22,575 nt of DNA from IMG/VR virus record IMGVR_UViG_3300028008_001775, positions 1-22,575 of that record, one strand, 5' to 3'. The stretch's first letter is position 1. Every line of letters starts with the position of its first letter. This DNA comes from a virus. The position numbers and the translations under genes were made by a program. This document shows, piece by piece, positions 1-22,575 of this stretch. Below the pieces are notes generated by a model, which saw only the letters and a program-made list of their open reading frames with translations, had not been told where the DNA came from and did not search any database.

Positions 1-173
1 TATTACTTGCACACAGTGCAAGTACAACTTACAAGTATATGCAAGAAGAAGGCGACAGTACTGATAAATTGTATTGCAAAATTCCATCTAATAGTATCGT
101 AGTAGATCCGTGGAGGAACTTTAGTTCCGATACATCTAAAGTAATACACTACGGTAACACAAGATATGGATAA
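1..173 (+). CDS. C-terminal fragment of an unknown protein (5' end outside window)
   Basis: An open frame with codons starting at base 3 runs from the left edge to a TAA at 171-173, giving about 56 residues. Near its end it reads SIVVDPWRNF and then HYGNTRYG. A hydrophobic strand followed by DPWR near the C-terminus is compatible with the last strand of a Rossmann-type protein such as a nucleotide-sugar dehydrogenase, but this is a weak resemblance and I do not assign a function. The downstream gene starts 2 bases after this stop, so the two are probably co-transcribed. Codon use looks like that of its neighbours. Confidence 0.6.
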   Translation, partial: LLAHSASTTYKYMQEEGDSTDKLYCKIPSNSIVVDPWRNFSSDTSKVIHYGNTRYG

Positions 174-175
174 TT

Positions 176-844
176 ATGTACGACATTGTATTCATAAGTT
201 ATCAAGAGCCTAATGCAGATGAAAACTATGCTGCACTAAAAGCACGATTTCCTATGGCTAAACGTGTACACGGAGTTAAAGGAATACACCAAGCACACAT
301 AAAGGCAGCAAAGAAATGCTTTACTAAGATGTTTTGGATTGTAGATGCTGATGCAATAATCGTGGACGACTTTAACTTTGATTATATTGTCCCTGATCAC
401 CAGTTAGATCATGTACATGTATGGAGAGCAAAGAATCCTATTAATGGATTAGAATATGGTTATGGAGGAGTAAAGTTATTTCCTCGCAAACTTACAATAG
501 GAATGGATACAACTAAACCAGATATGACTACAAGCATAAGCGAACATTTTATTGCTGTAGATAAAGTTGCAAATATTACAAAATTTAACACAAGTCCATT
601 TGAAACATGGAAAGGTGCATTTAGAGAATGTGCTAAACTAAGCAGTAAGACAATTACGAGACAAAACAATGAAGAAACCGAAAGTAGACTTGAAACATGG
701 TGTACAAAAGGCTCTGAGGAACACTATGGTAGCTACGCTCTTAATGGCGCTAATGCTGGCAGGAAGTTTGGGATTTCTAATAGGAGCAATATTGATCTTA
801 TAAATGATTTTGATTGGCTAAGGGAACAGTTTGATGCAGAATAG
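176..844 (+). CDS. Glycosyltransferase-like protein with a DxD motif
   Basis: A 222-residue protein. It opens with a short strand (YDIVFISYQEP) and has the segment FWIVDADAIIVDDF at about residues 53-66. A hydrophobic strand ending in D-x-D is the metal and nucleotide-sugar binding signature of GT-A glycosyltransferases, and the N-terminus fits a Rossmann-like half. The predicted job is sugar transfer to a phage or host acceptor. It follows the truncated gene by 2 bases and overlaps the next gene (an rSAM) by 11 bases, so it is part of the same transcript. GGA lies 5 bases before the ATG. I see no membrane segment. The fold call rests on one motif and could be wrong; proteins of this kind in marine phages are often left as hypothetical. 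Confidence 0.5.
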   Translation: MYDIVFISYQEPNADENYAALKARFPMAKRVHGVKGIHQAHIKAAKKCFTKMFWIVDADAIIVDDFNFDYIVPDHQLDHVHVWRAKNPINGLEYGYGGVKLFPRKLTIGMDTTKPDMTTSISEHFIAVDKVANITKFNTSPFETWKGAFRECAKLSSKTITRQNNEETESRLETWCTKGSEEHYGSYALNGANAGRKFGISNRSNIDLINDFDWLREQFDAE

Positions 845-1820
845 TTACGACAAAATACCATGGACTGATATAACTAATTTTGGACAGCAAACCATGCTTA
901 AGAGCCATCTTTTTACAGTCTCATGGATATTGGCTAGATTTTGTAATTATTCATGCAGTTATTGCTGGCCATACGCTAGATCTAGTACCCCGGATCACCA
1001 AGATTTAGAAATTTACTTAAAGGCCTTAGATAGTATCAAAGCACAAGCTCGTGCAAACGAGTTTACAGACTTTCATTTTAGCTTCTCAGGAGGCGAACCT
1101 ACAGCGTATAAGTACTTTGGGGAGATCATAGATCATTACTGTAGTGATACAGCACCCGATTACCAAAGTATCCACATGACGACCAATCTTAGCCCGGGAA
1201 GCAAATGGTGGAACAAATGGTTAGAAAGTACTAAGACTCTGCACCGCAGAAGTATAACAGCAAGTTACCATGCAGAATTTGCAAATGAACAGGAGTTTGG
1301 AGATAAATGTCTCCAATTAATAGACAATGAAACATTCGTTACAATTAATCAAGTTATGGTTCCGGAACAGTTTGACGAACTTTACCAACGGCTTGAACGA
1401 TTTGCCACCAGAGGTATTAATGTTACTCTCAAGCCAATGTCCGATCCAACCGCCAGTTACGTGGTACACGGATATACAGAAGACCAAATCGCAAAAATGC
1501 GACAAGGATTTCCACAAAAGTGGAACGGCGAGCAAATAGCACAAATTGCACTATATGATAGTAAAGGTACAAAATACGAATTAGATCAAGCAGAACGTTT
1601 CAATGCATTTGGATTCAATAAGTTTCATGGATGGGAATGTAATGCAGGATATCAAGGATGCGTTATTCGAGAGAATGAAGTTAAACGGAGCTATAGTTGC
1701 CATGATGCTCCTTTAGGCACGTTAGACGGAGGATTTGAGCTGTTTAAAGCACCACAAGAGTGTATAACCTATAGTTGTGTAAGCAGTGCAGATAGTAAGA
1801 TACCAAAGAGAAAAGTATGA
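834..1820 (+). CDS. Radical SAM enzyme with C-terminal cysteine-rich domain
   Basis: A 328-residue protein. The CX3CX2C motif that binds the SAM-cleaving 4Fe-4S cluster is at C37, C41 and C44 (CNYSCSYC). The GGEP motif that contacts the SAM amino group is at 86-89 (FSGGEPT). The C-terminal part has C269, C276, C289, C310 and C315, a spacing that suggests one auxiliary cluster of the SPASM/twitch kind. The segment GWECNAG around 267 recurs in two other rSAM proteins of this window (10703-11674 and 11652-12563). The ATG at 834 is preferred to a TTG at 831 because AGGGA lies 8 bases upstream. The gene overlaps the glycosyltransferase-like gene by 11 bases and the methyltransferase-like gene by 4. 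Such enzymes modify peptides or small molecules by hydrogen abstraction; the substrate is unknown. Confidence 0.85.
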   Translation: MQNSYDKIPWTDITNFGQQTMLKSHLFTVSWILARFCNYSCSYCWPYARSSTPDHQDLEIYLKALDSIKAQARANEFTDFHFSFSGGEPTAYKYFGEIIDHYCSDTAPDYQSIHMTTNLSPGSKWWNKWLESTKTLHRRSITASYHAEFANEQEFGDKCLQLIDNETFVTINQVMVPEQFDELYQRLERFATRGINVTLKPMSDPTASYVVHGYTEDQIAKMRQGFPQKWNGEQIAQIALYDSKGTKYELDQAERFNAFGFNKFHGWECNAGYQGCVIRENEVKRSYSCHDAPLGTLDGGFELFKAPQECITYSCVSSADSKIPKRKV

Positions 1821-2419
1821 AAGTTGATATACAAGATGTACTATTCTGGATGGACGCAATTCGTAACAGCGATAACAAATATCGCACACTTGAAAGTTTT
1901 TGGAAAGGCCAAATAAACAGCAAAGTTTGGTTAGCAAAAGAATTGTACAGTATAATACCTAAGACAAAACTAAATGATATAGTTATATACGGTGGTTGGA
2001 ACGGAGTGCTGGCAAGTATATTGTTTAACAGTCGCTTACCGTTAAACAGCATTACAAGCGTGGACATAGATCCTGTGTGCAAAGATATTGCTTGTACAGT
2101 AAACAGACGATATGAAATAGAAAGAAAGTTTAATGCTGTAACAGCAGATATGTGCAAGTATACCCAACCTGCTGATGTTGTTATTAACACAAGTTGCGAA
2201 CACATTACTCAAGAACAATATGAACAATGGTTATCTAATCAACCAGACGATGCATTATTTGTAGTGCAGAGTAATAACTATTTTGAATTAGAAGAGCATG
2301 TACGATGTGCAACAGACTTAAATAACTTTATGCATATGAGTAAAATTAAGCCGCTATGGAGAGGTATATATGATACTCCTAAGTACACACGTTACATGAT
2401 AATAGGTAAAAAGAAATGA
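1817..2419 (+). CDS. Class I SAM-dependent methyltransferase-like protein
   Basis: A 200-residue protein. The central part fits a Rossmann-fold methyltransferase: a strand into a glycine-rich loop (IVIYGGWNGVLAS, about 55-67), a second strand ending in acidic residues (SVDIDP, 81-86), a D at 111 after VTA, and NTSCEHI at 124-130 in the motif IV region. The glycine loop YGGWNG departs from the usual GxGxG, so SAM binding is likely but not certain. It lies between two rSAM genes with 4-base ATGA overlaps on both sides, which argues for translational coupling and a shared pathway. The substrate is unknown; the size suits a small-molecule or protein methyltransferase. The N-terminal 50 residues are probably helical substrate-side elements. 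Confidence 0.6.
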   Translation: MKVDIQDVLFWMDAIRNSDNKYRTLESFWKGQINSKVWLAKELYSIIPKTKLNDIVIYGGWNGVLASILFNSRLPLNSITSVDIDPVCKDIACTVNRRYEIERKFNAVTADMCKYTQPADVVINTSCEHITQEQYEQWLSNQPDDALFVVQSNNYFELEEHVRCATDLNNFMHMSKIKPLWRGIYDTPKYTRYMIIGKKK

Positions 2420-4056: not shown

Positions 4057-4428
4057 TTACTTAACTTCTTTCAACCCAAATTCTCTATCCAAATATTTAT
4101 ATTCTACTTTGGTAGGGTTCCATTGTTCTAGTTCTTTAAAAATAATATCTTTGTCTAGTGTACTACATGTATAAACATCGAGTTGTACAAGTGCAGGATC
4201 TACAGCGTCCCATACATGTATTGCAATGTGACTAGTTTCTATTACAATTACACCTGTTAATCCTTCGTTGCCTGGCATATCTACATATGCAGTGATAGGT
4301 CCTCTACAAACTTTCATTCCAATTTTTTCAACTAATTGTTTTAGCCAATTATGTAACCATACTTCGTCAGTTGGCGGACTCTTAACTTCTGCTCGAATAA
4401 TTAAATGTTTGTGTTCTAATACTTTCAT
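4057..4428 (-). CDS. speD: SpeD-family pyruvoyl-dependent decarboxylase (S-adenosylmethionine decarboxylase homologue)
   Basis: A 123-residue protein, the size of class 1b SpeD. The processing and active-site region is ETSHIAIH followed by DVYTC. S66 should become the pyruvoyl group after self-cleavage, H71 matches the processing histidine and C88 the catalytic cysteine. Two differences from the bacterial and archaeal class 1b sequences I remember: Thr replaces Glu just before the serine, and the region between H71 and C88 is two residues longer and lacks the W-P-E-x-G-Y-A stretch thought to hold the SAM ribose. The substrate may therefore be SAM, or another amino acid such as arginine or ornithine, as described for some SpeD homologues. 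It overlaps the amidinotransferase stop by 4 bases, which points to joint amine/guanidine metabolism. Confidence 0.85.
   Translation of the reverse strand: MKVLEHKHLIIRAEVKSPPTDEVWLHNWLKQLVEKIGMKVCRGPITAYVDMPGNEGLTGVIVIETSHIAIHVWDAVDPALVQLDVYTCSTLDKDIIFKELEQWNPTKVEYKYLDREFGLKEVK
4094..4101 (-). promoter_or_regulatory. Internal TATAAATA, possible late promoter for the SGNH hydrolase gene
   Basis: An exact TATAAATA on the - strand inside the SpeD-like coding region, about 40 bases before the ATG at 4055. It encodes part of EYKYLD, so the match may be due to codon choice. If active, it would express the SGNH hydrolase apart from the rest of the block. Confidence 0.25.
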
Positions 4429-5507
4429 ATAATGGTTCTTTTATTGCCTCGTCTTTTAGTATCTAGTGTGCCGCAGTGAATGCCTCCTTCCCAAAATAAC
4501 ATATGTCTTTGATCAACAGTGTGACAATCAATACCGTGTGTTTTTAAAAATTTAAATAAGTCTGGTAATTCGCGCCCGAATATTATATTGTTTCGATCTA
4601 CAATTAATACATTAAGATCAAAACAGCAGTCTTGATTGTAACCTGTCCAATTACCTAAATAATTTTCAACCCAGTCTAATTCATATCTGCCGCCCTTTGC
4701 AATAAAGTTTGTTTTGTATTCCTTTGTTTTTGGCGAAGGAATAAATTCTTTAGCGTCAATTAATTTTAAATGTCGTAGTGCTTGAGGAACCCAGTTTATA
4801 CCAGCATGTAAAACTGTTTCGTCGTCGATCATAATAAACCCGTGATCAATATGACCATAGTTTTCGGCGTGTCCGCCTACGTTTTTTATAAATTCAAATT
4901 CGGGTAGATTACGTTTAAGCCATTCGTATCCTTTTTTACTGCCGGGACCGTCACTGTCTATGATAATTTTATCACCTACTGGAAACATAGTTGCTGTATG
5001 AAATAATACTCTGTCATTTAATTTACTATAGTAAATATTAGTTCCAGGATCTTGTCCTGGCATATACCATATATCGCTCGGTGTAACAGGAACTAACGGT
5101 GGCGCCGCTTGACTAATCCAATTATACCCTTGGTCAAACATATCTGAAAATATATTATAGTAACTTAGACCGTCAAAGTATCTATCAGTTAAACTAGTGT
5201 ATGTTTGCACAATAGTTTTACCTGCTACTTTGTACTGATCTCTAGGAACTGTTGGCCCCATTGGAAACTTTACATCAAACCCTGGCATTGCAATATGTCC
5301 ATCATAATGATGTACATCTGGTCTTTTAACTGTGACTCCGCCTGCTTTTAAGAAGTCTGCTAATTTGTCAAAGTCTTCTTTTGTTTCATCTAGTATTTGA
5401 TTAAACTGTGACAAGTTCTCATCTGGAAATAAATGATCTAAGTCACCGCCTGCATACGAGTCTGCAACAATAACTTCTTCTAGTGGGTCGTATTCTGTGT
5501 AAACCAT
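4425..5507 (-). CDS. Amidinotransferase family protein (glycine amidinotransferase-like)
   Basis: A 360-residue pentein-fold enzyme. It begins DPLEEVIVADS, typical of the family, has FPMGPTVPRDQ at 81-91, the catalytic histidine and aspartate as G-H219-I-D221, and the catalytic cysteine C345 in WEGGIHCGTLD. The overall shape matches arginine:glycine amidinotransferase and related cyanobacterial enzymes rather than agmatine deiminase. Expected chemistry: the cysteine takes the amidino group from arginine, releasing ornithine, and passes it to an amine. The ATG at 5507 has a strong SD, GAGGAG, at suitable spacing, and the gene starts 28 bases inside the 3' end of the aminotransferase gene. The acceptor is not known; a product of the neighbouring aminotransferase or decarboxylase is a reasonable guess. 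Confidence 0.85.
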   Translation of the reverse strand: MVYTEYDPLEEVIVADSYAGGDLDHLFPDENLSQFNQILDETKEDFDKLADFLKAGGVTVKRPDVHHYDGHIAMPGFDVKFPMGPTVPRDQYKVAGKTIVQTYTSLTDRYFDGLSYYNIFSDMFDQGYNWISQAAPPLVPVTPSDIWYMPGQDPGTNIYYSKLNDRVLFHTATMFPVGDKIIIDSDGPGSKKGYEWLKRNLPEFEFIKNVGGHAENYGHIDHGFIMIDDETVLHAGINWVPQALRHLKLIDAKEFIPSPKTKEYKTNFIAKGGRYELDWVENYLGNWTGYNQDCCFDLNVLIVDRNNIIFGRELPDLFKFLKTHGIDCHTVDQRHMLFWEGGIHCGTLDTKRRGNKRTII

Positions 5508-6631
5508 TGTAGGTTCTCCTCTAATGCTTCGAAGTATTCGTCATCTGCAGCTATTGGAACAACATAAAAATGTTTCTCTAACCAAGAGTCGTGTTGCTTT
5601 CTAATTTTATAATGTAATCCGAATCTATTAAATACTGTGTAACCGGCATCTTCAAATATTTTTGTAGCACGTTCTACTATACTATCATGATTTTCTAATA
5701 ACTTATCGCGTTCTAAAATTTCTAAATATTTTACAGCAGATGCAACTCCTGGCAAACTAAAACAATATGTGAAACCGTGTTCCCAATTAAAGTTCTTAGG
5801 TAATGCATCTCTAATTTTATCATTAAACAGCACCATACTTAGCGGAAAAAATCCTCCAGTAATTGCTTTACCCATTGTTGAAATATCAGGACGTATGTTC
5901 ATATTTTCCCAACCAAGATAAGTTCCAGATTTGCCACCACCCATAAAGATATCATCAATAATTATTATTACATCGTGTTTTTTTCTTATTTCATCTAAAC
6001 TTGCCCAAAACTCTGCACTAGGAGGAGTCATGTCGCCGCCGTATGCACATGTTTCGATAACTATTGCTGCTACTGAATCCCAATCAACTTCGCCAAACTT
6101 ACTAGTATCTCTAGGTATTCGTTTCACTGAAGGATTAGGGTCTAGGGTATAAAATGGATCATCCATAAAATTATCATGTCCGATACTTCCAGTAAGATTT
6201 GTACTACCGTGGTAACTATCCAAAAAACCTACAATAGTTTTTTTGTGGTAATTTTCCTTTTGGAACTGGTATGCACATGCAAGTTTAACTGCTCCTTCAT
6301 TAGCATCAGATCCACTAAGAGCATAAAAAGAATTCATTCCTGAAATTTCACGTACTCTGTCAGCAAGCTGAAAGCTAAGATGATTTAATCTCAAAGTATC
6401 AGTTTTAGGCATAAAATGTTCGCCTATTTCTGGTTTGTTATACTTCATAGTGTTGTATACATAATCAATAATTTCTTGGTTATGATATCCTAATACATAA
6501 CATCCGTATTGTAAAATTGGATCAACAACTTTTCTTCCGTCTCGTACTTCACCAAATTTCCAATATGGCAACGGAAGTTCTAATTCCATATTGTCTGGTT
6601 GTACTTCTGGTAATAATCCGGTGTATTTCAT
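5480..6631 (-). CDS. Class III (omega) PLP-dependent aminotransferase
   Basis: A 383-residue fold-type I aminotransferase. GSDANE at 107-112 binds the PLP phosphate, SYHG at 139-142 stacks on the cofactor, D226 in IIIDDIFMGGG contacts the pyridine nitrogen, and K255 in TMGKAITGG forms the Schiff base. Class III members act on omega-amino groups of amino acids, diamines or polyamines, or as glutamate-1-semialdehyde type mutases. The start at 6631 is preferred to an in-frame start at 6670 because it follows the upstream stop by 1 base and has GAGGA 5 bases before the ATG; the longer form would add 13 residues overlapping the upstream gene. It is upstream of the amidinotransferase and SpeD-like genes, so a pathway through an amine or a guanidino compound is likely. 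Confidence 0.88.
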   Translation of the reverse strand: MKYTGLLPEVQPDNMELELPLPYWKFGEVRDGRKVVDPILQYGCYVLGYHNQEIIDYVYNTMKYNKPEIGEHFMPKTDTLRLNHLSFQLADRVREISGMNSFYALSGSDANEGAVKLACAYQFQKENYHKKTIVGFLDSYHGSTNLTGSIGHDNFMDDPFYTLDPNPSVKRIPRDTSKFGEVDWDSVAAIVIETCAYGGDMTPPSAEFWASLDEIRKKHDVIIIIDDIFMGGGKSGTYLGWENMNIRPDISTMGKAITGGFFPLSMVLFNDKIRDALPKNFNWEHGFTYCFSLPGVASAVKYLEILERDKLLENHDSIVERATKIFEDAGYTVFNRFGLHYKIRKQHDSWLEKHFYVVPIAADDEYFEALEENLQWFTQNTTH

Positions 6632-6632
6632 T

Positions 6633-7250
6633 TTAGTCCTCAATGTAATCTTTAAATATTTCCAATCCACGTTGGAAAGTTAATGGTTTTTTATTTTCTA
6701 AAAGTGTAAAACATAATGTCCAACGATGTTCAACAGGCGAAGGGTTCCATGTAGAATGTAATTGACTAATGTTAAGTAAACTAGGACGATCAATAACAAC
6801 TTCGTGTACTAAATCAGCATCATTATGATCTGCAAATAATACATACTCTATATCTATATCAGGTTTAATACCTGCTTTGTAAAATTTTTGATTAGCGTCT
6901 GCTTCGTCTAAGTAATGTTTTTTTATTTTAGAGTCGTCTTTAATCTTATACCACTGGGTTGTGCTATCCGGTGACCCCCATGTAAAGTTTAATTTACAGC
7001 AATCATTATCACCAGGCATAGAAGATGTGTCTGAATGTAAAGGAACTCTTCCGCCGTTTGGAGGTGTATAAAATCCTTCTAATACATTTGATATAGTTAG
7101 ACCGACACTTTCTATCCATTCTCTAAAAGGAGGATGAATGTATTTGTCTTCTATTAGTGCCGTATAATTTTTTGAACCTTCGTTAAAAATTTCTGGTTTA
7201 GGATATTCAAACGGTACGCTTACATAGCGGTGGTATATATTGTCTGTCAT
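6633..7250 (-). CDS. 2OG-Fe(II) oxygenase-like protein
   Basis: A 205-residue protein with the iron-binding H-x-D at H72 and D74 (VPLHSDTSS) and a distal histidine at H165 followed by R176 (SQLHSTWNPS, then EHRWTLCF), the Arg being the expected 2-oxoglutarate anchor. This is the double-stranded beta-helix arrangement of Asp/Asn hydroxylase or prolyl-hydroxylase-like enzymes. The predicted reaction is hydroxylation or oxidative tailoring of an unknown substrate, with 2OG and oxygen consumed. It overlaps the upstream CPFA-motif gene by 4 bases and precedes the aminotransferase by 1. A strong AAGGAG lies 11 bases before the ATG, at the long end of useful spacing. Confidence 0.7.
   Translation of the reverse strand: MTDNIYHRYVSVPFEYPKPEIFNEGSKNYTALIEDKYIHPPFREWIESVGLTISNVLEGFYTPPNGGRVPLHSDTSSMPGDNDCCKLNFTWGSPDSTTQWYKIKDDSKIKKHYLDEADANQKFYKAGIKPDIDIEYVLFADHNDADLVHEVVIDRPSLLNISQLHSTWNPSPVEHRWTLCFTLLENKKPLTFQRGLEIFKDYIED
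6637..6641 (-). promoter_or_regulatory. Ribosome binding site fixing the aminotransferase start
   Basis: GAGGA on the - strand, 5 bases before the ATG at 6631. It decides the start in favour of the shorter frame, which begins MKYTG. Confidence 0.75.
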
Positions 7251-8253: not shown

Positions 8254-9321
8254 ATGTTTACATTTAATCAATTACAAAATATTCATTTAGAAATTACAAA
8301 TCGCTGTCAGGCTAGTTGTCCGATGTGCAGTAGAAACTACCATGGCGGATTAGAAAATCCATTAATTAAAAATCAAGACTGGACAATTGATGATTTCAAA
8401 CAGATTTTAAACAGTGAAGTACTGCATCAAATAAACGGTTTTTACTTTTGTGGAAACTTCGGCGACCCTATTATTAACAATGATTTAGCAGAAATGTGTA
8501 GTTATGCAACTAATGTTAATCCTAATTTAGAGATTAGAATACATACAAACGGCGGAGCAAGAAGTACAGATTGGTGGAAGAAACTTGCAAAAGCATTGCC
8601 TAGTAACCATTGTGTTATTTTTGCAATTGACGGATTAGCAGATACACACAGTTTATATCGTATTGGTACTGACTTTAACAATGTATTAAAAAATGCAAAA
8701 GCATTTATTCAAGCAGGCGGAACAGCAGAATGGGCGTTTATAAAATTTAAACATAATGAACATCAACAACTTGCTTGTGAAGCACTAGCAACAGAACATG
8801 GCTTTGCTAGATTTACATGTAAAGACAGTGCAAGATTTGTTGCTACTGATAAGTTTGAAGTTTTAGATAAAAAAGGTCAGCTCGAATATTACATAGAGCC
8901 TCCTACAGGAAGCAACATAACTCTTATAACACAAGATGTAATTGACAATTATAAAGATGTAGTAGACGCTAGTGAAATAGACTGTTTTGTTTTAAAACAG
9001 AAAGAAATTTATATAACTGCACAAAGAAACATTATGCCTTGCTGTTTTTTAGCAAGTGCCCCGTATAATTATATACACCCTAATGATTTAGCCAAAGATA
9101 TTAGACAAAAGATAAAATCACAGCACTCTAGTCTTATTGCAGATTTAGGAAATATTAATGCTCTTGATCGTTCTATAAAAGATGTAATAGATTCTGATGC
9201 TTGGCAAACAGTATGGCACAAGTATTGGGGTGCAGAAAAACTAATTACATGTGCAAGAACGTGCGGAGTTAACAAACTTAGTAAACCAAAAGATCAGTTT
9301 ATAGACAAGGTAGAAATATAA
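8254..9321 (+). CDS. Radical SAM enzyme with GNFGDP variant motif
   Basis: A 355-residue rSAM protein. CX3CX2C is at C18, C22 and C25 (CQASCPMC). The GGEP position is replaced by CGNFGDP at 66-72, a variant I associate with a group of rSAM proteins in marine phages and bacteria. The C-terminal part has C244, the pair C263-C264 in IMPCCFLAS, and C333/C337 in CARTCG, which could hold a SPASM-type auxiliary cluster. It heads the + strand rSAM block, has no SD, and overlaps the next gene by 1 base (TAATG). The substrate is unknown; SPASM-containing relatives often modify peptides. Confidence 0.85.
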   Translation: MFTFNQLQNIHLEITNRCQASCPMCSRNYHGGLENPLIKNQDWTIDDFKQILNSEVLHQINGFYFCGNFGDPIINNDLAEMCSYATNVNPNLEIRIHTNGGARSTDWWKKLAKALPSNHCVIFAIDGLADTHSLYRIGTDFNNVLKNAKAFIQAGGTAEWAFIKFKHNEHQQLACEALATEHGFARFTCKDSARFVATDKFEVLDKKGQLEYYIEPPTGSNITLITQDVIDNYKDVVDASEIDCFVLKQKEIYITAQRNIMPCCFLASAPYNYIHPNDLAKDIRQKIKSQHSSLIADLGNINALDRSIKDVIDSDAWQTVWHKYWGAEKLITCARTCGVNKLSKPKDQFIDKVEI

Positions 9322-10706
9322 TGTCAGATTTAGAAAAGTATCAAGCTGAAATTGCAGAAGTAAGCGGCACAGAAACATTTTGTGTATTACCTTGGATACA
9401 TATGGCAACTAGACCAAACGGCGATATGCGATTATGCTGTACGTCTAATGCAAGCGGCGCTGGCGATAATCATGAAGTGGGCCTTGTAAAAATGGAAGAT
9501 GGCAAACCTGCAAACTTTGGTAAACATACTCCTTTAGAAGCATGGAATAACGATTACATGAAAAGTGTACGTACAACTATGCTTAATGGTGAAATTCCTG
9601 CAAGCTGTACAGGTTGCTTTAAAGAAGAAAGCCAAGGTATTGTAAGTAAGCGTATCTGGGAAACAGGCACTTGGCACCGAGACGATAATGGTGTAGATAT
9701 TCCTGAACTTATTCGTCAAACAAAAGAAGACGGCACTGTGCCGGAAAATTTAAAATATTTGGATCTAAGATTAGGACATACTTGCAACATAAAGTGTGTA
9801 ATGTGTAGCCCACATGATTCAAGTAAGTGGGTTGCAGACCATAAAAAACTTATTCCGGTATTACAAGATCCTGAAGTTAAAAGACAAATGCAATGGGATC
9901 GCAAATTGTTTAATAACAAGTGGCATGAGAAAGTTTCATTCTGGAAAGAAATTAATGCACAAATTCCTAATCTAAGACAAGTATACTTTGCTGGAGGCGA
10001 GCCTCTAATGATCAAAGAACACAAAATGTTTATTAAAGAAATTATTCGTCAAGGCTATCAAGATAAAATACTATTACGTTATAACTCAAACGGATTGCTT
10101 GTAGATGAAGAATTAATTGAGCTATGGTCAAAGTTTTATAAAGTTAAATTTGCTGTTAGTGTTGATGCAAGTTTTGAACGTGATGATTATATTCGCTTTC
10201 CTACAAAGTTTGCTGATGTAGAACGTACACTACATATGTTAGATAACACTCCAGACAACATACACATTAGTATGGCAACGGCTGTACAGATATTTAATAT
10301 CAAACATATGCCTGATTTTATAAAATGGAAAATAAACAGTAATTTTAAAAAGATGAATATTGGTTTAGTAGGCGGAGTAAAAATGGGAGGCGGATTGGTC
10401 AACATGCATCTAGTACATATACCAACGTTTCTTAATATTACAATACTACCAGAACACGACAAACAAGAAGTGCGTGAACGTTTTGCAGAACTTAAAACAT
10501 GGCTATGGGAAAACTATACACAAGACGATGATTTTTGGATACATAATCCATCTGGTTGGCCCAAATGGGAAGGCTTGTTAGCACATATGGATTCGGCAGA
10601 TAACAGTCATTTACTTTCTGGATTTAAAGAGTATGTAAACAAACTCGATGCTATCCGCGGATTAAACGCAGCAGCTATATTTCCTGAACTAGCACACTTG
10701 CTATGA
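9321..10706 (+). CDS. Twitch-domain radical SAM protein (N-terminal twitch)
   Basis: A 461-residue protein with two parts. The N-terminal 100 residues form a twitch-like cysteine domain: C21 in FCVLPW, C39-C40 in MRLCC, and C96/C99 in CTGC, with LEAWNND between them, a signature of this family. The rSAM core follows: CX3CX2C at C155, C159 and C162 (CNIKCVMC) and FAGGEPLM at 223-230. Having the auxiliary domain before the core is the reverse of classic SPASM proteins. It is a paralogue of the protein at 12556-13821. It overlaps both neighbours, by 1 base upstream and 4 downstream; AAGG lies 10 bases before the ATG. The function of the family is unknown to me. Confidence 0.88.
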   Translation: MSDLEKYQAEIAEVSGTETFCVLPWIHMATRPNGDMRLCCTSNASGAGDNHEVGLVKMEDGKPANFGKHTPLEAWNNDYMKSVRTTMLNGEIPASCTGCFKEESQGIVSKRIWETGTWHRDDNGVDIPELIRQTKEDGTVPENLKYLDLRLGHTCNIKCVMCSPHDSSKWVADHKKLIPVLQDPEVKRQMQWDRKLFNNKWHEKVSFWKEINAQIPNLRQVYFAGGEPLMIKEHKMFIKEIIRQGYQDKILLRYNSNGLLVDEELIELWSKFYKVKFAVSVDASFERDDYIRFPTKFADVERTLHMLDNTPDNIHISMATAVQIFNIKHMPDFIKWKINSNFKKMNIGLVGGVKMGGGLVNMHLVHIPTFLNITILPEHDKQEVRERFAELKTWLWENYTQDDDFWIHNPSGWPKWEGLLAHMDSADNSHLLSGFKEYVNKLDAIRGLNAAAIFPELAHLL

Positions 10707-11674
10707 AAGATCTAATTAAAATAGAAACAATGGAGGCTAAAAATAGGCTCCGTATAGAGTATATGGTAGGAAACTATTGTAACTATAAATGTTTATATTG
10801 CGGTGATTATGCTAACGGCGGAGATACTAGGTGGCCAAATGATTACGAATTATTAATAAAACATTTTACTCATCTATTAGATTTCTATATAGCAAACGGT
10901 AGAGATAGATTTGAAGTTAATCTGTTAGGCGGCGAACCTACACTTTGGCCAAACGTTGCTAAATTTGCTAGAGACTTAAAAGCAATGTATAACGTAAAAG
11001 TTACAATGACTACAAATGGTAGTAGAACTATTCGATGGTGGGAGAAAAATGCTAAAGCATTTGATAAAATATTATTCAGCTATCATCACAAAGAAGCTGA
11101 CTTACCGCATTTTATAAATGTACTAGACACTGTTTACGATCAAGGAATTCCAATGAACACATTAGTAATGATGGATCCTACTGTTTGGGATGAGTGTATA
11201 GATGCAATAGAACAAATGAAACAAAGTAAAAGACGTTGGTTTATTAGTGCAATGGAAGTTCATCCTCCCCAATATACCGCAGAGCAGCGTGAAGTATTTA
11301 AAAAACATGCTAAGAGAAGACCGCCTGTCTTAAAGGTTTTAAAAGACGAATGGGAAAATATTATTAAAGGAAAGACTAAACTAATATATAGTGACGGATC
11401 TAAAAAGAGTGTAGAACGTAACTATCTTTCAACAAACAATTTAAATAATTTTAAAGGATGGATGTGTAATATAGGATTAGAAAATATTAATATACAAAAA
11501 GATGGAAGAATTACAGGGACTTGCGGAAATTTTGTATATGGCGAACAACAGCATTATAATCTATATGATCCTAAATTTACTGAAATATTTAATCCACAAC
11601 TTGTACCTAGTCTTTGTACAAAAACTGATTGTTGGTGCCAGCCCGAAATGCTTATGTCAAAGTGGAAACTTTAG
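10703..11674 (+). CDS. Radical SAM enzyme with C-terminal GWxCN cysteine domain
   Basis: A 323-residue protein. CX3CX2C is at C26, C30 and C33 (CNYKCLYC), with GGEPT at 76-80 and TTNGS after it. The C-terminus has GWMCNIGLENINI, then GTCG, then C305, C310 and C312 in CTKTDCWCQPE. The same order (GWxCN, aromatic/hydrophobic strand, xTC, CTxxxCxC) occurs in the convergent protein at 11652-12563, and GWECNAG occurs in the one at 834-1820. These cysteines probably bind an auxiliary Fe-S cluster. It is the last gene of its block, starts in the stop of the twitch rSAM gene (ATGA), and its 3' end overlaps the convergent rSAM gene by 23 bases. The substrate is unknown. Confidence 0.85.
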   Translation: MKDLIKIETMEAKNRLRIEYMVGNYCNYKCLYCGDYANGGDTRWPNDYELLIKHFTHLLDFYIANGRDRFEVNLLGGEPTLWPNVAKFARDLKAMYNVKVTMTTNGSRTIRWWEKNAKAFDKILFSYHHKEADLPHFINVLDTVYDQGIPMNTLVMMDPTVWDECIDAIEQMKQSKRRWFISAMEVHPPQYTAEQREVFKKHAKRRPPVLKVLKDEWENIIKGKTKLIYSDGSKKSVERNYLSTNNLNNFKGWMCNIGLENINIQKDGRITGTCGNFVYGEQQHYNLYDPKFTEIFNPQLVPSLCTKTDCWCQPEMLMSKWKL

Positions 11675-12563
11675 TTAACGGAATGTCAGCAGCACATGTA
11701 CACCATTTGCGTGTACATATAATAGGAGCAATAGGAGATTCGAAAGTTCCTTTATAAATGTTACCTAAACTACCGCCTACTCTACACGTAGCACGATGTA
11801 CATCACCGTCCCAGTTGATCATTAAACTTTCTAAACCTGCATTGCAGCTCCAACCTTCGAAAGCATTTAGTTTATGTTTAATTACATCATTTGCATGTAT
11901 TAGATCTTTGTTATCTACGACACAATTTGCTTTTACTGTTGATTTTTTACTTAATATCCATTCTAAATCTTTTTCTTTATAACGCATATCATCAAAATAA
12001 TCTCGATCTTCAGTTTCGGTCCAACGTATACGTCTACAAACATACGGAATGTTATGACCATCTAATAGATTTGCAGCAGCTCTAACGTTATCCATGTGTT
12101 CGTGATGACACATTAGATTTACTTGAAATTTAGTATCTTTACTGTTCATGTCTAACAACTGGCTATAATGAACAATATTTTCAGCTGCTCGTTGACTATG
12201 TTCGTTATCGAAGTGCAAACTAAACACCCATTGGTCCACTGGCTGCTTTGCATACCACTCAGGCATACGAAGTGCGTTGGTAGTAATACTAAGCCATTGT
12301 AATCTTGCTTTTGCACATTCTATTATTTTTTCTATCTTTGGATGTACAGTAGGCTCACCGCCGGTTAAACTTAGGCGTACAGGTTTACCAATTTTTTCTA
12401 ATTCGTAAATAGTATTAACCATAACGTCTAAGTCAGTATGCGGACTAAAGTTATCGTGTATTTCTGCAGGACAGTATCCGCAATCTAAATTACAGCGTTT
12501 GCCTATATTCCATTCTACGTGAATACTGGTGTGATGTCCCCAACGACTTTCTACTTTAAACAT
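11652..12563 (-). CDS. Radical SAM enzyme with C-terminal GWxCN cysteine domain
   Basis: A 303-residue protein from the ATG at 12563. CX3CX2C is at C24, C28 and C31 (CNLDCGYC) and GGEPT at 68-72 (LTGGEPT). The C-terminus contains GWSCNAGLESLMI, ATCRVGG, and CTRKWCTC, closely parallel to the convergent gene product at 10703-11674, so the two are paralogues. A GTG at 12605 would add 14 residues but overlap the upstream gene by 50 bases; the ATG at 12563 overlaps it by only 8 bases, like several other joints here, and puts the CX3CX2C motif near the N-terminus as in the paralogue. No strong SD precedes it. Likely an auxiliary-cluster rSAM enzyme of unknown substrate, working with the twitch rSAM upstream. 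Confidence 0.83.
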   Translation of the reverse strand: MFKVESRWGHHTSIHVEWNIGKRCNLDCGYCPAEIHDNFSPHTDLDVMVNTIYELEKIGKPVRLSLTGGEPTVHPKIEKIIECAKARLQWLSITTNALRMPEWYAKQPVDQWVFSLHFDNEHSQRAAENIVHYSQLLDMNSKDTKFQVNLMCHHEHMDNVRAAANLLDGHNIPYVCRRIRWTETEDRDYFDDMRYKEKDLEWILSKKSTVKANCVVDNKDLIHANDVIKHKLNAFEGWSCNAGLESLMINWDGDVHRATCRVGGSLGNIYKGTFESPIAPIICTRKWCTCAADIPLTKVSTLT

Positions 12564-13821
12564 ATGGAGTAAACTCTGGATTAGCTGCAAGAAAGTCTTG
12601 TCCACGAGTTTTGTCTAAACGCTTGTTAAACTCTATACAGTCTTGCCAGTGCGTTTCGTACATACATTTTGCTTCTAAGAAATTAATATTATCTTGTATT
12701 TGTTGTAGTGTTACAGTTTCTAATAGCTTGTGTTGCTTTACTAAAGGATATTCTAATACTTCTGTTTTCATTTTTTCTAAACGTGCTATTACTTTTTGTT
12801 TTAGTTTTGGAGGCAATACTTGCGCACTTAAACTCATAGGATAGTTTACTCTATGCGAATAAAACACAATGCCCATTTTATTAATAAAGTATTCAATAAC
12901 TTTATCAATTTGCATTATATTATTTGCTTGTACAGTAAACGCACCAACTACTCTGCTTACATTAGGAAAACTTTTAAATATCTCAACGTTTTCTTCTATT
13001 TCAGTAAACTTGCCATTGCCCCTAATGTATTCATATGTGTCGTGTATGCCGTCTATACTTACGTTTACAGCGATGCTACGAAACTTAGGCCAATAGTCGT
13101 GTACAGTACGTCCGCCTTTAATACCTAGCGTAGTGCCGTTTGTAGCATACTTTAGTTCTATGTTATCACCGTACTCTGCAAGTTTGTCTAGTATTTTATA
13201 ATGATATGGATCCATTAGCGGCTCACCACCTGCAAACTCTACACGTCTAAAGAACGGTAGTAGTTTTTCAAAACTTGTCCACCAGTTGTCTGAGTTATCA
13301 AACGGACCAATATATTGCCCTGGTTTAGTTACAAGTGCATCAACAATTGGAATTAATATATTGTCTTCTTTTTTATAAAAATCTGTTACTTGATCCCAAT
13401 CTTTCCAACTTGTACTATCTAAAGGATTACACATACGACACTTCAAATTGCATAAGTTGTTTAGTTTAATTTCCATAGTAGGAAATTCAAAAGGCATACT
13501 ATAATCGTCGTCTAAAGCGTCAAGTGCATCAGGGTATAAGTTGACCCTAGCTTCGGGTATTACCCCTGCTGTATGACGCTGTCGTAAGCTCTGTACACCC
13601 TGATCTTCTAAGTCAAAACACGGTTTGCACACTACTGGACGTTCGTTATTAAGAACTTGTCTGCGTACTTCACGCATAGCATCATTATTCCACGCTTCTT
13701 CAAGAGTTTCTTTTTGTATGTAACTAATAGGCGCACTTCGACAGCATACCTTAATAGCGCCATCTTCTCTAGTAGCAAGACCTGTGAAAGGATGCATACA
13801 GAATGTACAACTTTTAGACAT
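12556..13821 (-). CDS. Twitch-domain radical SAM protein (N-terminal twitch)
   Basis: A 421-residue paralogue of the protein at 9321-10706. The N-terminal domain has CTFCMHPFTGLAT, C26-C27 in KVCC, LEEAWNND at 40-47, and C65/C68 in CKPC. The rSAM core has C124, C128 and C131 (CNLKCRMC) and FAGGEPLMDP at 196-205; SIDG marks a later barrel strand. It follows the PP-loop gene with an 8-base overlap and is followed by the GWxCN rSAM gene with another 8-base overlap. Pairing of a twitch rSAM with a GWxCN rSAM is repeated on the other strand. Substrate and product are unknown. Confidence 0.88.
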   Translation of the reverse strand: MSKSCTFCMHPFTGLATREDGAIKVCCRSAPISYIQKETLEEAWNNDAMREVRRQVLNNERPVVCKPCFDLEDQGVQSLRQRHTAGVIPEARVNLYPDALDALDDDYSMPFEFPTMEIKLNNLCNLKCRMCNPLDSTSWKDWDQVTDFYKKEDNILIPIVDALVTKPGQYIGPFDNSDNWWTSFEKLLPFFRRVEFAGGEPLMDPYHYKILDKLAEYGDNIELKYATNGTTLGIKGGRTVHDYWPKFRSIAVNVSIDGIHDTYEYIRGNGKFTEIEENVEIFKSFPNVSRVVGAFTVQANNIMQIDKVIEYFINKMGIVFYSHRVNYPMSLSAQVLPPKLKQKVIARLEKMKTEVLEYPLVKQHKLLETVTLQQIQDNINFLEAKCMYETHWQDCIEFNKRLDKTRGQDFLAANPEFTPYV

Positions 13822-14494
13822 TATCTATTCCCCATTGACGTTCCCTGCACCAAAAACATTCTCCACATTCTGGCACATGTTGTCCTGGTATATATGTAGT
13901 ATAATCCAAACCTTCAAACTCTCCTTCGCAACTTCGAGTAAGATTTAATAAGTCTACGATATCGTTTTCGTAGTATTGCCGTATGATCCAATCCTTTTTA
14001 GTATACACGAAAGGATGACAAATGTCAACTCCGTTATGTACAAAATGAGGATCTAATACACTTTCGTTACGTTCTTCCATTTCCCCAGGTATAGATATAT
14101 CAGGATTCATATTTACACCACCGTATAATGCATCTAAGTTATATTGGTGTGCAATATATTCGTTATGCGAACGTAGTATAATCCTATTACCTGATTTCAT
14201 TTTACCATATTCGTCTTTAATAAGATAATCAGTTGGCTCTTCTAATTCAGGTGGCACTAAGTTTTTATGCACTATAAAATTATTGTCAAACTTATTTCCA
14301 AGCCAGTCAATTACTCCGTCAACAACAGGGCCTTGCCATGGTCTTGTCTTCCACATGCGTATTTGGTTAGTAATATGTATATCTGTAGTTGTACTTACGT
14401 TTTTGCATATTAAATAAGCAAGTAATGCACTATCAGCACCACCGCTCAAACTTATGCCTATTCGTTTCCACTTTTGATTTAGATATATGTTCAT
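13814..14494 (-). CDS. PP-loop ATPase, QueC/asparagine-synthase-like, with C-terminal zinc site
   Basis: A 226-residue protein. The PP-loop SGGADSA is at 17-23, binding ATP for adenylation. At the C-terminus C189, C210, C213 and C216 (CGECFWC) resemble the zinc site of QueC, where the spacing from the first cysteine is shorter. QueC makes preQ0 by activating a carboxylate and adding ammonia, so an amide- or nitrile-forming ligase is possible. I do not name it queC: no QueD, QueE or FolE partner is visible, and the middle of the protein (GGVNMNPDISIPGE, HFVHNGVDICHPF) has its own pattern. It heads the - strand rSAM block. It has no SD; a GATAAGTA box lies 5 bases before the ATG. Confidence 0.72.
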   Translation of the reverse strand: MNIYLNQKWKRIGISLSGGADSALLAYLICKNVSTTTDIHITNQIRMWKTRPWQGPVVDGVIDWLGNKFDNNFIVHKNLVPPELEEPTDYLIKDEYGKMKSGNRIILRSHNEYIAHQYNLDALYGGVNMNPDISIPGEMEERNESVLDPHFVHNGVDICHPFVYTKKDWIIRQYYENDIVDLLNLTRSCEGEFEGLDYTTYIPGQHVPECGECFWCRERQWGIDNV

Positions 14495-21760: not shown

Positions 21761-22575
21761 TTAGTTTAAATCTACCCAAGCACTACCTGTGTAACCTTGG
21801 AATTTAGTACCTGTCGAGTTAAACACCATCATACCTGCTGTCGGAGTAGTAATTGCTGCATCACGTGCAGCGTCATCGGCATACACACCTGGTTTAATAA
21901 ATGATGTAGTTTCAACTGGCTTGTTACCAGTTAGTACATTATTCCAGCCATCTGTATCATGATAATAACTTAATCCAGAAAGTGTTGTATCGTATACTAT
22001 TGTACCTTGTAGACCTATTCCGCCACTTACTTTAGCAAGTAGTCCAGTTTTATCTGTAGTTGATATACCTGGTGTTTGAATTGCTCTTACTGTAAATATA
22101 CCATTTGATTCTAATCGAGCAAATGCATTATCATATGTGCCGTCATCATCTAGTAGAGCAATATCTAGTCTACCTGGTAGTGCTTCTGATCCAACAGTAT
22201 TGTCAGATACATTAAAATTTAGAAGTCCACTCGATCTATATTCAGTTCCGTTATGTGATTGAGCTATTAATGAAAATAATGAGTCGCTGTTGTTAACAGC
22301 AATTGGAGAAGTAACTGTTCCTCTTGAAGTAGTAGCGTCAAATACTCCTCCGGCAAAAAAGCTGTCTCCATCAGTAGTTGCTAACATAGTAGACTGTGAA
22401 GATGTAATTTTTAACTTGCCTGTACCTTCTGGGTTTAACAATAAGTCATTAGATGAAGTAACTTGTGATGTAAAAATATTACCACTTATGCCGTCTACAA
22501 TTAATGTACTATCATCACTAAATACGCTACCTTGTATATCACCAGTTACGTTGCCCTCTACACTACCAAACAATA
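21761..22575 (-). CDS. Phage fibre-like / structural protein, C-terminal part (5' end outside window)
   Basis: An open frame of about 271 residues that continues past the right edge; the first in-frame start-like codon near the edge is a TTG and is not taken as the true start. The N-terminal end of the visible part has GxVx tetrads (GSVEGNVTGDIQGSVF) followed by SDDSTLIVDG, a pattern I know from fibre and structural proteins of marine T4-like phages. The middle is rich in Ser, Thr, Gly and Asn with beta character (NDLLLNPEGTGKLKI), and the end reads GMMVFNSTGTKFQGYTGSAWVDLN, a common C-terminal trimerisation or tip segment. A role in host binding or virion decoration is likely. Confidence 0.75.
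   Translation of the reverse strand, partial: LFGSVEGNVTGDIQGSVFSDDSTLIVDGISGNIFTSQVTSSNDLLLNPEGTGKLKITSSQSTMLATTDGDSFFAGGVFDATTSRGTVTSPIAVNNSDSLFSLIAQSHNGTEYRSSGLLNFNVSDNTVGSEALPGRLDIALLDDDGTYDNAFARLESNGIFTVRAIQTPGISTTDKTGLLAKVSGGIGLQGTIVYDTTLSGLSYYHDTDGWNNVLTGNKPVETTSFIKPGVYADDAARDAAITTPTAGMMVFNSTGTKFQGYTGSAWVDLN

Follow-up and report, generated by a model that had tools for sequence, protein, structure and literature searches.

A convergent array of radical SAM enzymes with a conserved core, a variable slot and a QueC-like partner in viral loci

The four radical SAM genes that meet tail to tail in the virus record examined here (22,575 bases; this whole stretch is called the window below) form an arrangement that is real and strongly conserved. 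The data support a core-plus-slot array with a QueC-like partner and do not support a mirror duplication. Genes A, C and D are the conserved core, B is a slot whose gene is often swapped or lost, and the QueC-like gene is a fifth, ATP-using member of the array (Table 1). The initial annotation described two mirror-image pairs, each a twitch enzyme followed by a short enzyme. Its coordinates for the four genes, the tail-to-tail meeting of the two strands and the overlap of 23 bases were all confirmed by the open reading frames. The picture of two equal pairs did not hold. It also overlooked rS1 and the QueC-like gene, which belong to the same set.

Table 1. Genes and features of the array and its surroundings in the window.
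Feature	Coordinates	Strand	Description	Score or basis
Glycosyltransferase-like gene	176..844	+	Weak assignment	Weak Pfam matches only
rS1	831..1820	+	Third member of the B/C family (GWECN)	B/C profile 359 bits
mt	1817..2419	+	Methyltransferase-like	Assigned by eye
rS3	8254..9321	+	Radical SAM enzyme directly 5' of A	phrog_21308 82 bits
A	9321..10706	+	N-terminal-twitch radical SAM enzyme; constant arm of the array	NF033640 380.4 bits
B	10703..11674	+	Short radical SAM enzyme, C-terminal Cys region (GWMCN); variable slot	Radical_SAM 48.6 bits
B/C tail-to-tail overlap, 23 b	11652..11674	.		ORF coordinates
C	11652..12563	-	Short radical SAM enzyme, C-terminal Cys region (GWSCN); constant partner of D	Radical_SAM 48.0 bits
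D	12556..13821	-	N-terminal-twitch radical SAM enzyme; second constant arm	NF033640 326.3 bits
QueC-like ATP-pyrophosphatase	13814..14494	-	First gene of the queC-D-C operon	PF06508 20.5 bits, under cut-off 22

The reading frames of A, B, C and D are all open and the genes are tightly packed, with overlaps of 4 b for A/B, 8 b for D/C and 8 b for queC/D. An overlap of B and C similar to that in the window (17-23 b) recurs in most loci that have a B-type gene. Both A and D score above the curated cut-off of the NCBIfam model N_Twi_rSAM NF033640 (170 bits, over the full model) and keep all of the twitch and radical SAM cysteines. In A, cysteines C21, C40, C96 and C99 of the twitch and C155, C159 and C162 of the radical SAM motif are without variation. 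The N-terminal twitch cysteines and CxxxCxxC were invariant among 46 aligned members of the twitch family, and the radical SAM motif was present in 84 of 84 A and 84 of 84 D proteins. B and C match the Pfam family Radical_SAM, and the alignment of their family shows C240, C260, C283 and C288 to be invariant, with a C-terminal Cys-rich region. Median dN/dS values of 0.08-0.12 across the four families indicate purifying selection. The invariant cysteines and the low dN/dS indicate that A, B, C and D are working genes. That A and D, and likewise B and C, are paralogues was borne out by pairwise searches (A versus D, 30% identity, E 5e-46, or 28% in the twitch family alignment; B versus C, 24% identity, E 1e-15). 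The shared motifs LEAWNND, CC and FAGGEPLM are indeed present, but they occur family-wide in the consensus and are not a mark specific to the pairs.

Two scans of IMG/VR for relatives of A and D recovered 344 and 283 stretches, and a profile scan added more distant ones. The conservation counts below refer to 84 distinct viral loci, each holding A, C and D. As the loci were retrieved via their twitch genes, adjacency to twitch genes is enriched by design. The convergent order, with A on one strand facing C and then D on the other, was found in 84 of the 84 loci. This indicates that the layout is conserved rather than due to chance, and bears out the suggestion that the arrangement is under selection. 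C is present in every locus at 48-95% identity and adjoins D in 69 of them, one intervening gene of ∼275 aa being found in the other 15. The slot occupied by B is less constant, holding a B-type gene in 58 of the 84 loci, other genes in 19 and nothing in 7. A fixed two-enzyme unit, which had also been suggested, is thus seen for D with C but not for A with B. Median identities to the window across the loci were 78% for A, 85% for D, 63% for C and 38% for B. Distance correlations, which ignore shared phage ancestry and so rank the genes without proving interaction, were highest of all pairs for A-D (0.80), followed by C-D (0.60), and were 0.25-0.34 for B with any partner. They suggest that A and D (with C) form the tight unit and that B is exchanged. 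A general rule that a twitch gene is paired with an SH gene (TW-to-SH) was considered and dropped. At contig level such pairs numbered 117 against 57.7 in shuffles, but SH lies directly downstream in only 12 of 72 twitch families, and the excess comes mainly from the A and D families being counted many times.

The genes around the array show that A has further companions. The third member of the B/C family, rS1, is a conserved partner of A in other phages, and 90 members of the A family have rS3 next to them on the upstream side. Considering loci with enough sequence, the methyltransferase-like gene lies upstream of A in 24 of 26 loci with near orthologues of A and in 15 of 18 with distant ones; in the window this gene gave no Pfam match and no family match. 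The glycosyltransferase-like gene precedes A in 15 of the 18 distant loci. Other genes of the window include a sulfotransferase, a desaturase, an aminotransferase and a 2OG-type oxygenase, which were counted in favour of a tailoring pathway. Searches of the window for Rfam families and tRNA genes found none.

The window lacks a capsid gene and gave no megablast match to cultured phages, and the phages carrying the array were placed via long relatives, as marine T4-related phages. Two such relatives, G001 (169 kb) and G002 (160 kb), have a T4-type portal, and G001 also has a T4-type capsid and sheath; two more relatives were found as contigs 358 and 364 kb long. The G001 capsid is 67-72% identical to those of the jumbo phages 2.275.O, Phosso and the PA5oct group, which suggests an affinity with jumbo phages and not with pelagimyophages. 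The close cultured relatives by capsid, namely Vibrio phage 2.275.O, Sinorhizobium phage Phosso and Pseudomonas phage Paride, lack twitch genes that exceed the cut-off. Among cultured phages A was matched weakly and only in Vibrio phages K566 and K567 (plus one single-cell virus record). In K566, five twitch genes are interleaved with GT8 and GT4-like glycosyltransferase genes, and LpxC and a PagP-annotated gene lie beside them. The twitch genes of K566 share only 20-24% identity with A and D and belong to other subfamilies, which was counted against the glycan or metabolite reading given below.

Bacteria, too, carry related genes. On a Bdellovibrionales contig (L190; contig C275 of G013) the order is repeated, with an A-like gene convergent with an SH gene and a D-like gene, and QueC-like genes are present. 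The same contig carries a seryl-tRNA synthetase gene and an EPSP-synthase-family gene (MurA-like by eye), which indicates that it is chromosomal. A search for a T4 portal in this genome was negative, though it had no positive control. Counting by hand gave ∼17 twitch genes over the cut-off in the Bdellovibrionales genome and ∼19 in a Bdellovibrionia MAG. The cultured alphaproteobacterium Poseidonocella has two twitch genes beside genes for a polyketide synthase, a carrier protein, an NDP-hexose 2,3-dehydratase and a B12 radical SAM enzyme.

What the conserved convergent array does can be proposed only tentatively. We consider, with slightly less than even confidence, that its enzymes may carry out a multi-step tailoring of a surface glycan or of a sugar-like metabolite, with B varying the product. 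One strand would contribute A with its old neighbours rS1, the methyltransferase-like gene and often rS3, and the other the QueC-like protein, D and C, all of them acting in a single multi-step pathway. The QueC-like protein would activate a carboxyl group with ATP and the product would be handed to D and C, while A and rS1 would work on the same scaffold and the enzyme of the B slot would make a final, lineage-specific modification. The scaffold would most likely be a cell-surface glycan or a sugar-like metabolite, and its alteration during infection could exclude competitors or evade recognition.

The choice of a glycan or sugar-like metabolite over a peptide is made because of the best structural match of C and the settings of the relatives, namely the glycosyltransferases and LpxC of K566 and the polyketide and sugar genes of Poseidonocella. 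The models of A (pLDDT 91.5) and C (pLDDT 93.3) are confident radical SAM folds. The best match of the C model is BlsE, a cytosylglucuronate decarboxylase acting on a sugar nucleoside, with Z 18.5 and rmsd 3.7 over 266 of 303 residues, but at only 10% identity and with other SPASM enzymes within a few Z units. The peptide maturase SkfB is second at Z 17.3. This low identity, with SkfB so close behind, was counted against the glycan or metabolite reading. For the A model the peptide-modifying anSME and CteB are level with the small-molecule enzymes BlsE and viperin at Z 12-13, and this tie makes the choice a lean and not a proof.

The same structural matches bear on the alternative of a protein substrate, such as the tail fibre of the phage itself or a ribosomal peptide, by analogy with other SPASM and twitch radical SAM enzymes. 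Twitch and SPASM domains are frequent in peptide maturases, anSME and CteB head the fold matches of A at Z 13, and the putative tail-fibre gene close to the site fits protein modification and so counts against a glycan or metabolite. In pelagimyophages, radical SAM cassettes have been placed in a host-recognition island with tail fibres (PMC7029224). Nevertheless, no precursor peptide gene was recognised in the window among ORFs of 60 aa or more, no RiPP maturase model reached or came near its cut-off for the window proteins, and the relatives sit among glycosyltransferase and polyketide genes. Protein modification is therefore regarded as somewhat unlikely.

The QueC-like gene ties the array to a second class of enzyme. 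Its protein falls short of the gathering cut-off of PF06508 (Table 1), and its PADLOC score is weak; a Bdellovibrionales relative scores 23.0 against PF06508. It resembles the QueC family, including Cap9 and QatC, in its SGGADS loop, which conforms to the SGGxDS phosphate loop, and in a C-terminal CxxCxxC. It differs in having C(x)20CxxCxxC in place of the canonical zinc motif C(x)8CxxCxxC, in that neither of the canonical substrate motifs YPDC and VPxRN was seen in it (the zinc motif and YPDC are from PMC13329287), and in its twitch radical SAM partner. Of the 119 members of its own family, 111 immediately precede a twitch gene, 13 of 17 QueC-like families have the two kinds of gene side by side (counted by hand), and the two are fused in two other phage loci (L268 and L269). 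QueC-like and twitch enzymes are thus linked by adjacency and by two fusions, an association from which no interaction is claimed. A broader idea would be that the twitch radical SAM enzymes and QueC-like ATP-pyrophosphatases constitute an undescribed two-component chemistry, ATP activation followed by radical modification, common to marine phages and Bdellovibrionota, in which the fixed core builds a scaffold and the swappable radical SAM slot diversifies the product. This is considered rather doubtful.

In type IV CBASS and Qat, members of the QueC family attach deazaguanines to proteins (PMC13279940, PMC11996544, PMC13329287). By analogy with the defence proteins Cap9 and QatC, the QueC-like protein, D and C might link a 7-deazaguanine to a protein or nucleic acid. 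The three genes share an operon, and genes for GTP cyclohydrolase and QueE-like proteins occur in G001, a relative of 169 kb. FolE and QueE were, however, seen in that one genome only, and the absence of the canonical YPDC and VPxRN motifs and the weak PF06508 and PADLOC scores also argue against such a reaction. HUP ATP-pyrophosphatases are moreover not confined to deazaguanine chemistry and serve many other reactions. A deazaguanine conjugate is accordingly judged improbable, and the tailoring of a glycan or sugar-like metabolite remains the reading that we prefer.

The origin of the array was addressed with a twitch tree of 40 rows and by comparing loci with near and distant orthologues of A, using a 7 kb length filter. 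The initial annotation had favoured an old inverted duplication of a two-enzyme pair followed by divergence, to be refuted by trees placing the members in separate clades. The paralogy and symmetry of A/D and B/C agree with such an origin. Copies arising in this way should be mutual closest relatives, and for B and C as sisters this was rejected (p-AU 4.7e-5); grouping the whole B clade with C was marginally rejected (p-AU 0.037), this group having been named after seeing the tree. The best tree also parts A from D. A lies with its own orthologues and then with other A-like families, while D is elsewhere with one phage and one Bdellovibrionales protein, and the separating branch has support of 98/97. 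Forcing the A clade and D together cost 16.4 lnL (p-AU 0.111) and is disfavoured but not formally rejected. Separate clades are thus clear for B/C, and for A/D are given by the best tree. Furthermore, A is 27-34% identical to a dozen other twitch families and no closer to D.

The neighbourhoods point the same way. Of 68 loci with A of at least 54% identity, 64 had a convergent D, but D was beside none of the 20 distant orthologues of A (39-50% identity) that had enough downstream sequence. The distant orthologues nevertheless retain the old neighbours of A (rS1 in 13 of 18, the methyltransferase-like gene as given above), which indicates that D is no local copy of A. The boundary is not sharp, since two shorter loci below the length filter (L263 and L265, with A at ∼44%) have both C and D. 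At the DNA level, only short AT-rich inverted arms, 71-89% complementary, were found in 9321-13821, with no trace of a duplicated block. An inverted duplication is therefore very unlikely. The data are read most simply if A, rS1 and the methyltransferase-like gene form an older neighbourhood and queC-D-C either was added to it on the other strand or disappeared from the distant lineages. The results show D to be an ancient paralogue that either moved in next to A or stayed there, and not a local mirror copy.

Finally, a viperin-like antiviral or superinfection-exclusion chemistry on nucleotides is hardly credible, as the prokaryotic viperin model NF038283, although among the best weak matches (B 45.5 and C 49.2 bits), has a cut-off of 180 bits and is matched over the N-terminal radical SAM core only, and as viperin, BlsE and SPASM enzymes alike match the fold.

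A description of the A-B-C-D array was not found in the open-licence literature, and a phrase search for phage-encoded radical SAM enzymes returned no paper. The family model NF033640, to which A and D belong, gives no function, and the convergent array with B, C and the QueC-like gene lies outside it. The closest published systems are the radical SAM-rich islands of marine T4-like phages. In the portions of these sources available, T4-like marine phage genomes are reported with up to 12 radical SAM genes, for example TARA_ERS488813_N000010 (PMC5332604), and radical SAM cassettes are placed in the host-recognition cluster of pelagimyophages (PMC7029224). The array resembles these islands in its many radical SAM genes, variable surroundings and gain and loss of cassettes. 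It differs in that those portions give gene counts and cassettes and do not describe an A/C/D core, a B slot or a link between twitch and QueC-like enzymes (PMC5332604, PMC7029224). The radical SAM genes of marine T4-like phages are thus known to be numerous and their organisation has been read as loose cassettes, whereas here a fixed core can be distinguished from a variable slot, and the twitch enzymes are linked, through an operon and through fusions, to a QueC-like partner of a different enzyme class. The chromosomal island of the Bdellovibrionota and the cultured Vibrio phage K566 provide entry points for experiments. If the product were a surface glycan, then the array would give the phage a means of remodelling the surface of its host.

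Bdellovibrionota MAGs harbour large islands in which twitch radical SAM genes occur together with QueC-like (ATP-pyrophosphatase) genes. A carbamoyltransferase gene is present in one of these, the L302 island, and the L300 island holds a gene which by eye is similar to window 4425-5507. In a Poseidonocella isolate, a polyketide cluster holds two twitch genes; an NDP-hexose 2,3-dehydratase is encoded there too, as is a B12 radical SAM enzyme. Fusion of a twitch radical SAM enzyme to a QueC-like domain was observed in two open reading frames.

Features of the window and of related loci.
Feature	Location	Strand	Remark
Twitch island	L302-L304		contig C275 of G013 (Bdellovibrionales)
Twitch island	L300-L301		contig C192 of G014
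Polyketide cluster, Poseidonocella isolate	L305:1305-20000		two twitch genes
Twitch-QueC-like fusion ORF	L268:10547-13045		832 aa
Twitch-QueC-like fusion ORF	L269:10544-13036		830 aa
Gene inserted between C and D	L010:10257-11108		likewise in L016, L037, L053, others
AdoMet decarboxylase, 360 aa enzyme, class III aminotransferase	window 4057-6670	-	one operon
Repetitive protein	window 21761-22573	-	island edge

The interval between genes C (short GWxCN radical SAM) and D (twitch) holds an extra gene of 272-283 aa in 15 of the 84 loci; this gene has no clear family, its sole Pfam match being a weak one to MUG113. The 169 kb phage contig G001, which carries the array, has GTP cyclohydrolase and QueE-like genes (L169:2644-4331).

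Within the window, the operon containing the AdoMet decarboxylase gene was found in only a few related loci and is therefore a cassette; its 360 aa enzyme is unassigned and looks amidinotransferase-like by eye. The repetitive protein resembles phage fibre proteins by eye, and its sole PHROG match is weak, to a PHROG of unknown function.

The cultured Vibrio phage K566 (OZ196521.1; L299) contains five twitch genes with glycosyltransferase genes interspersed, in a region adjoining LpxC and a gene annotated as PagP. This phage offers a tractable system.
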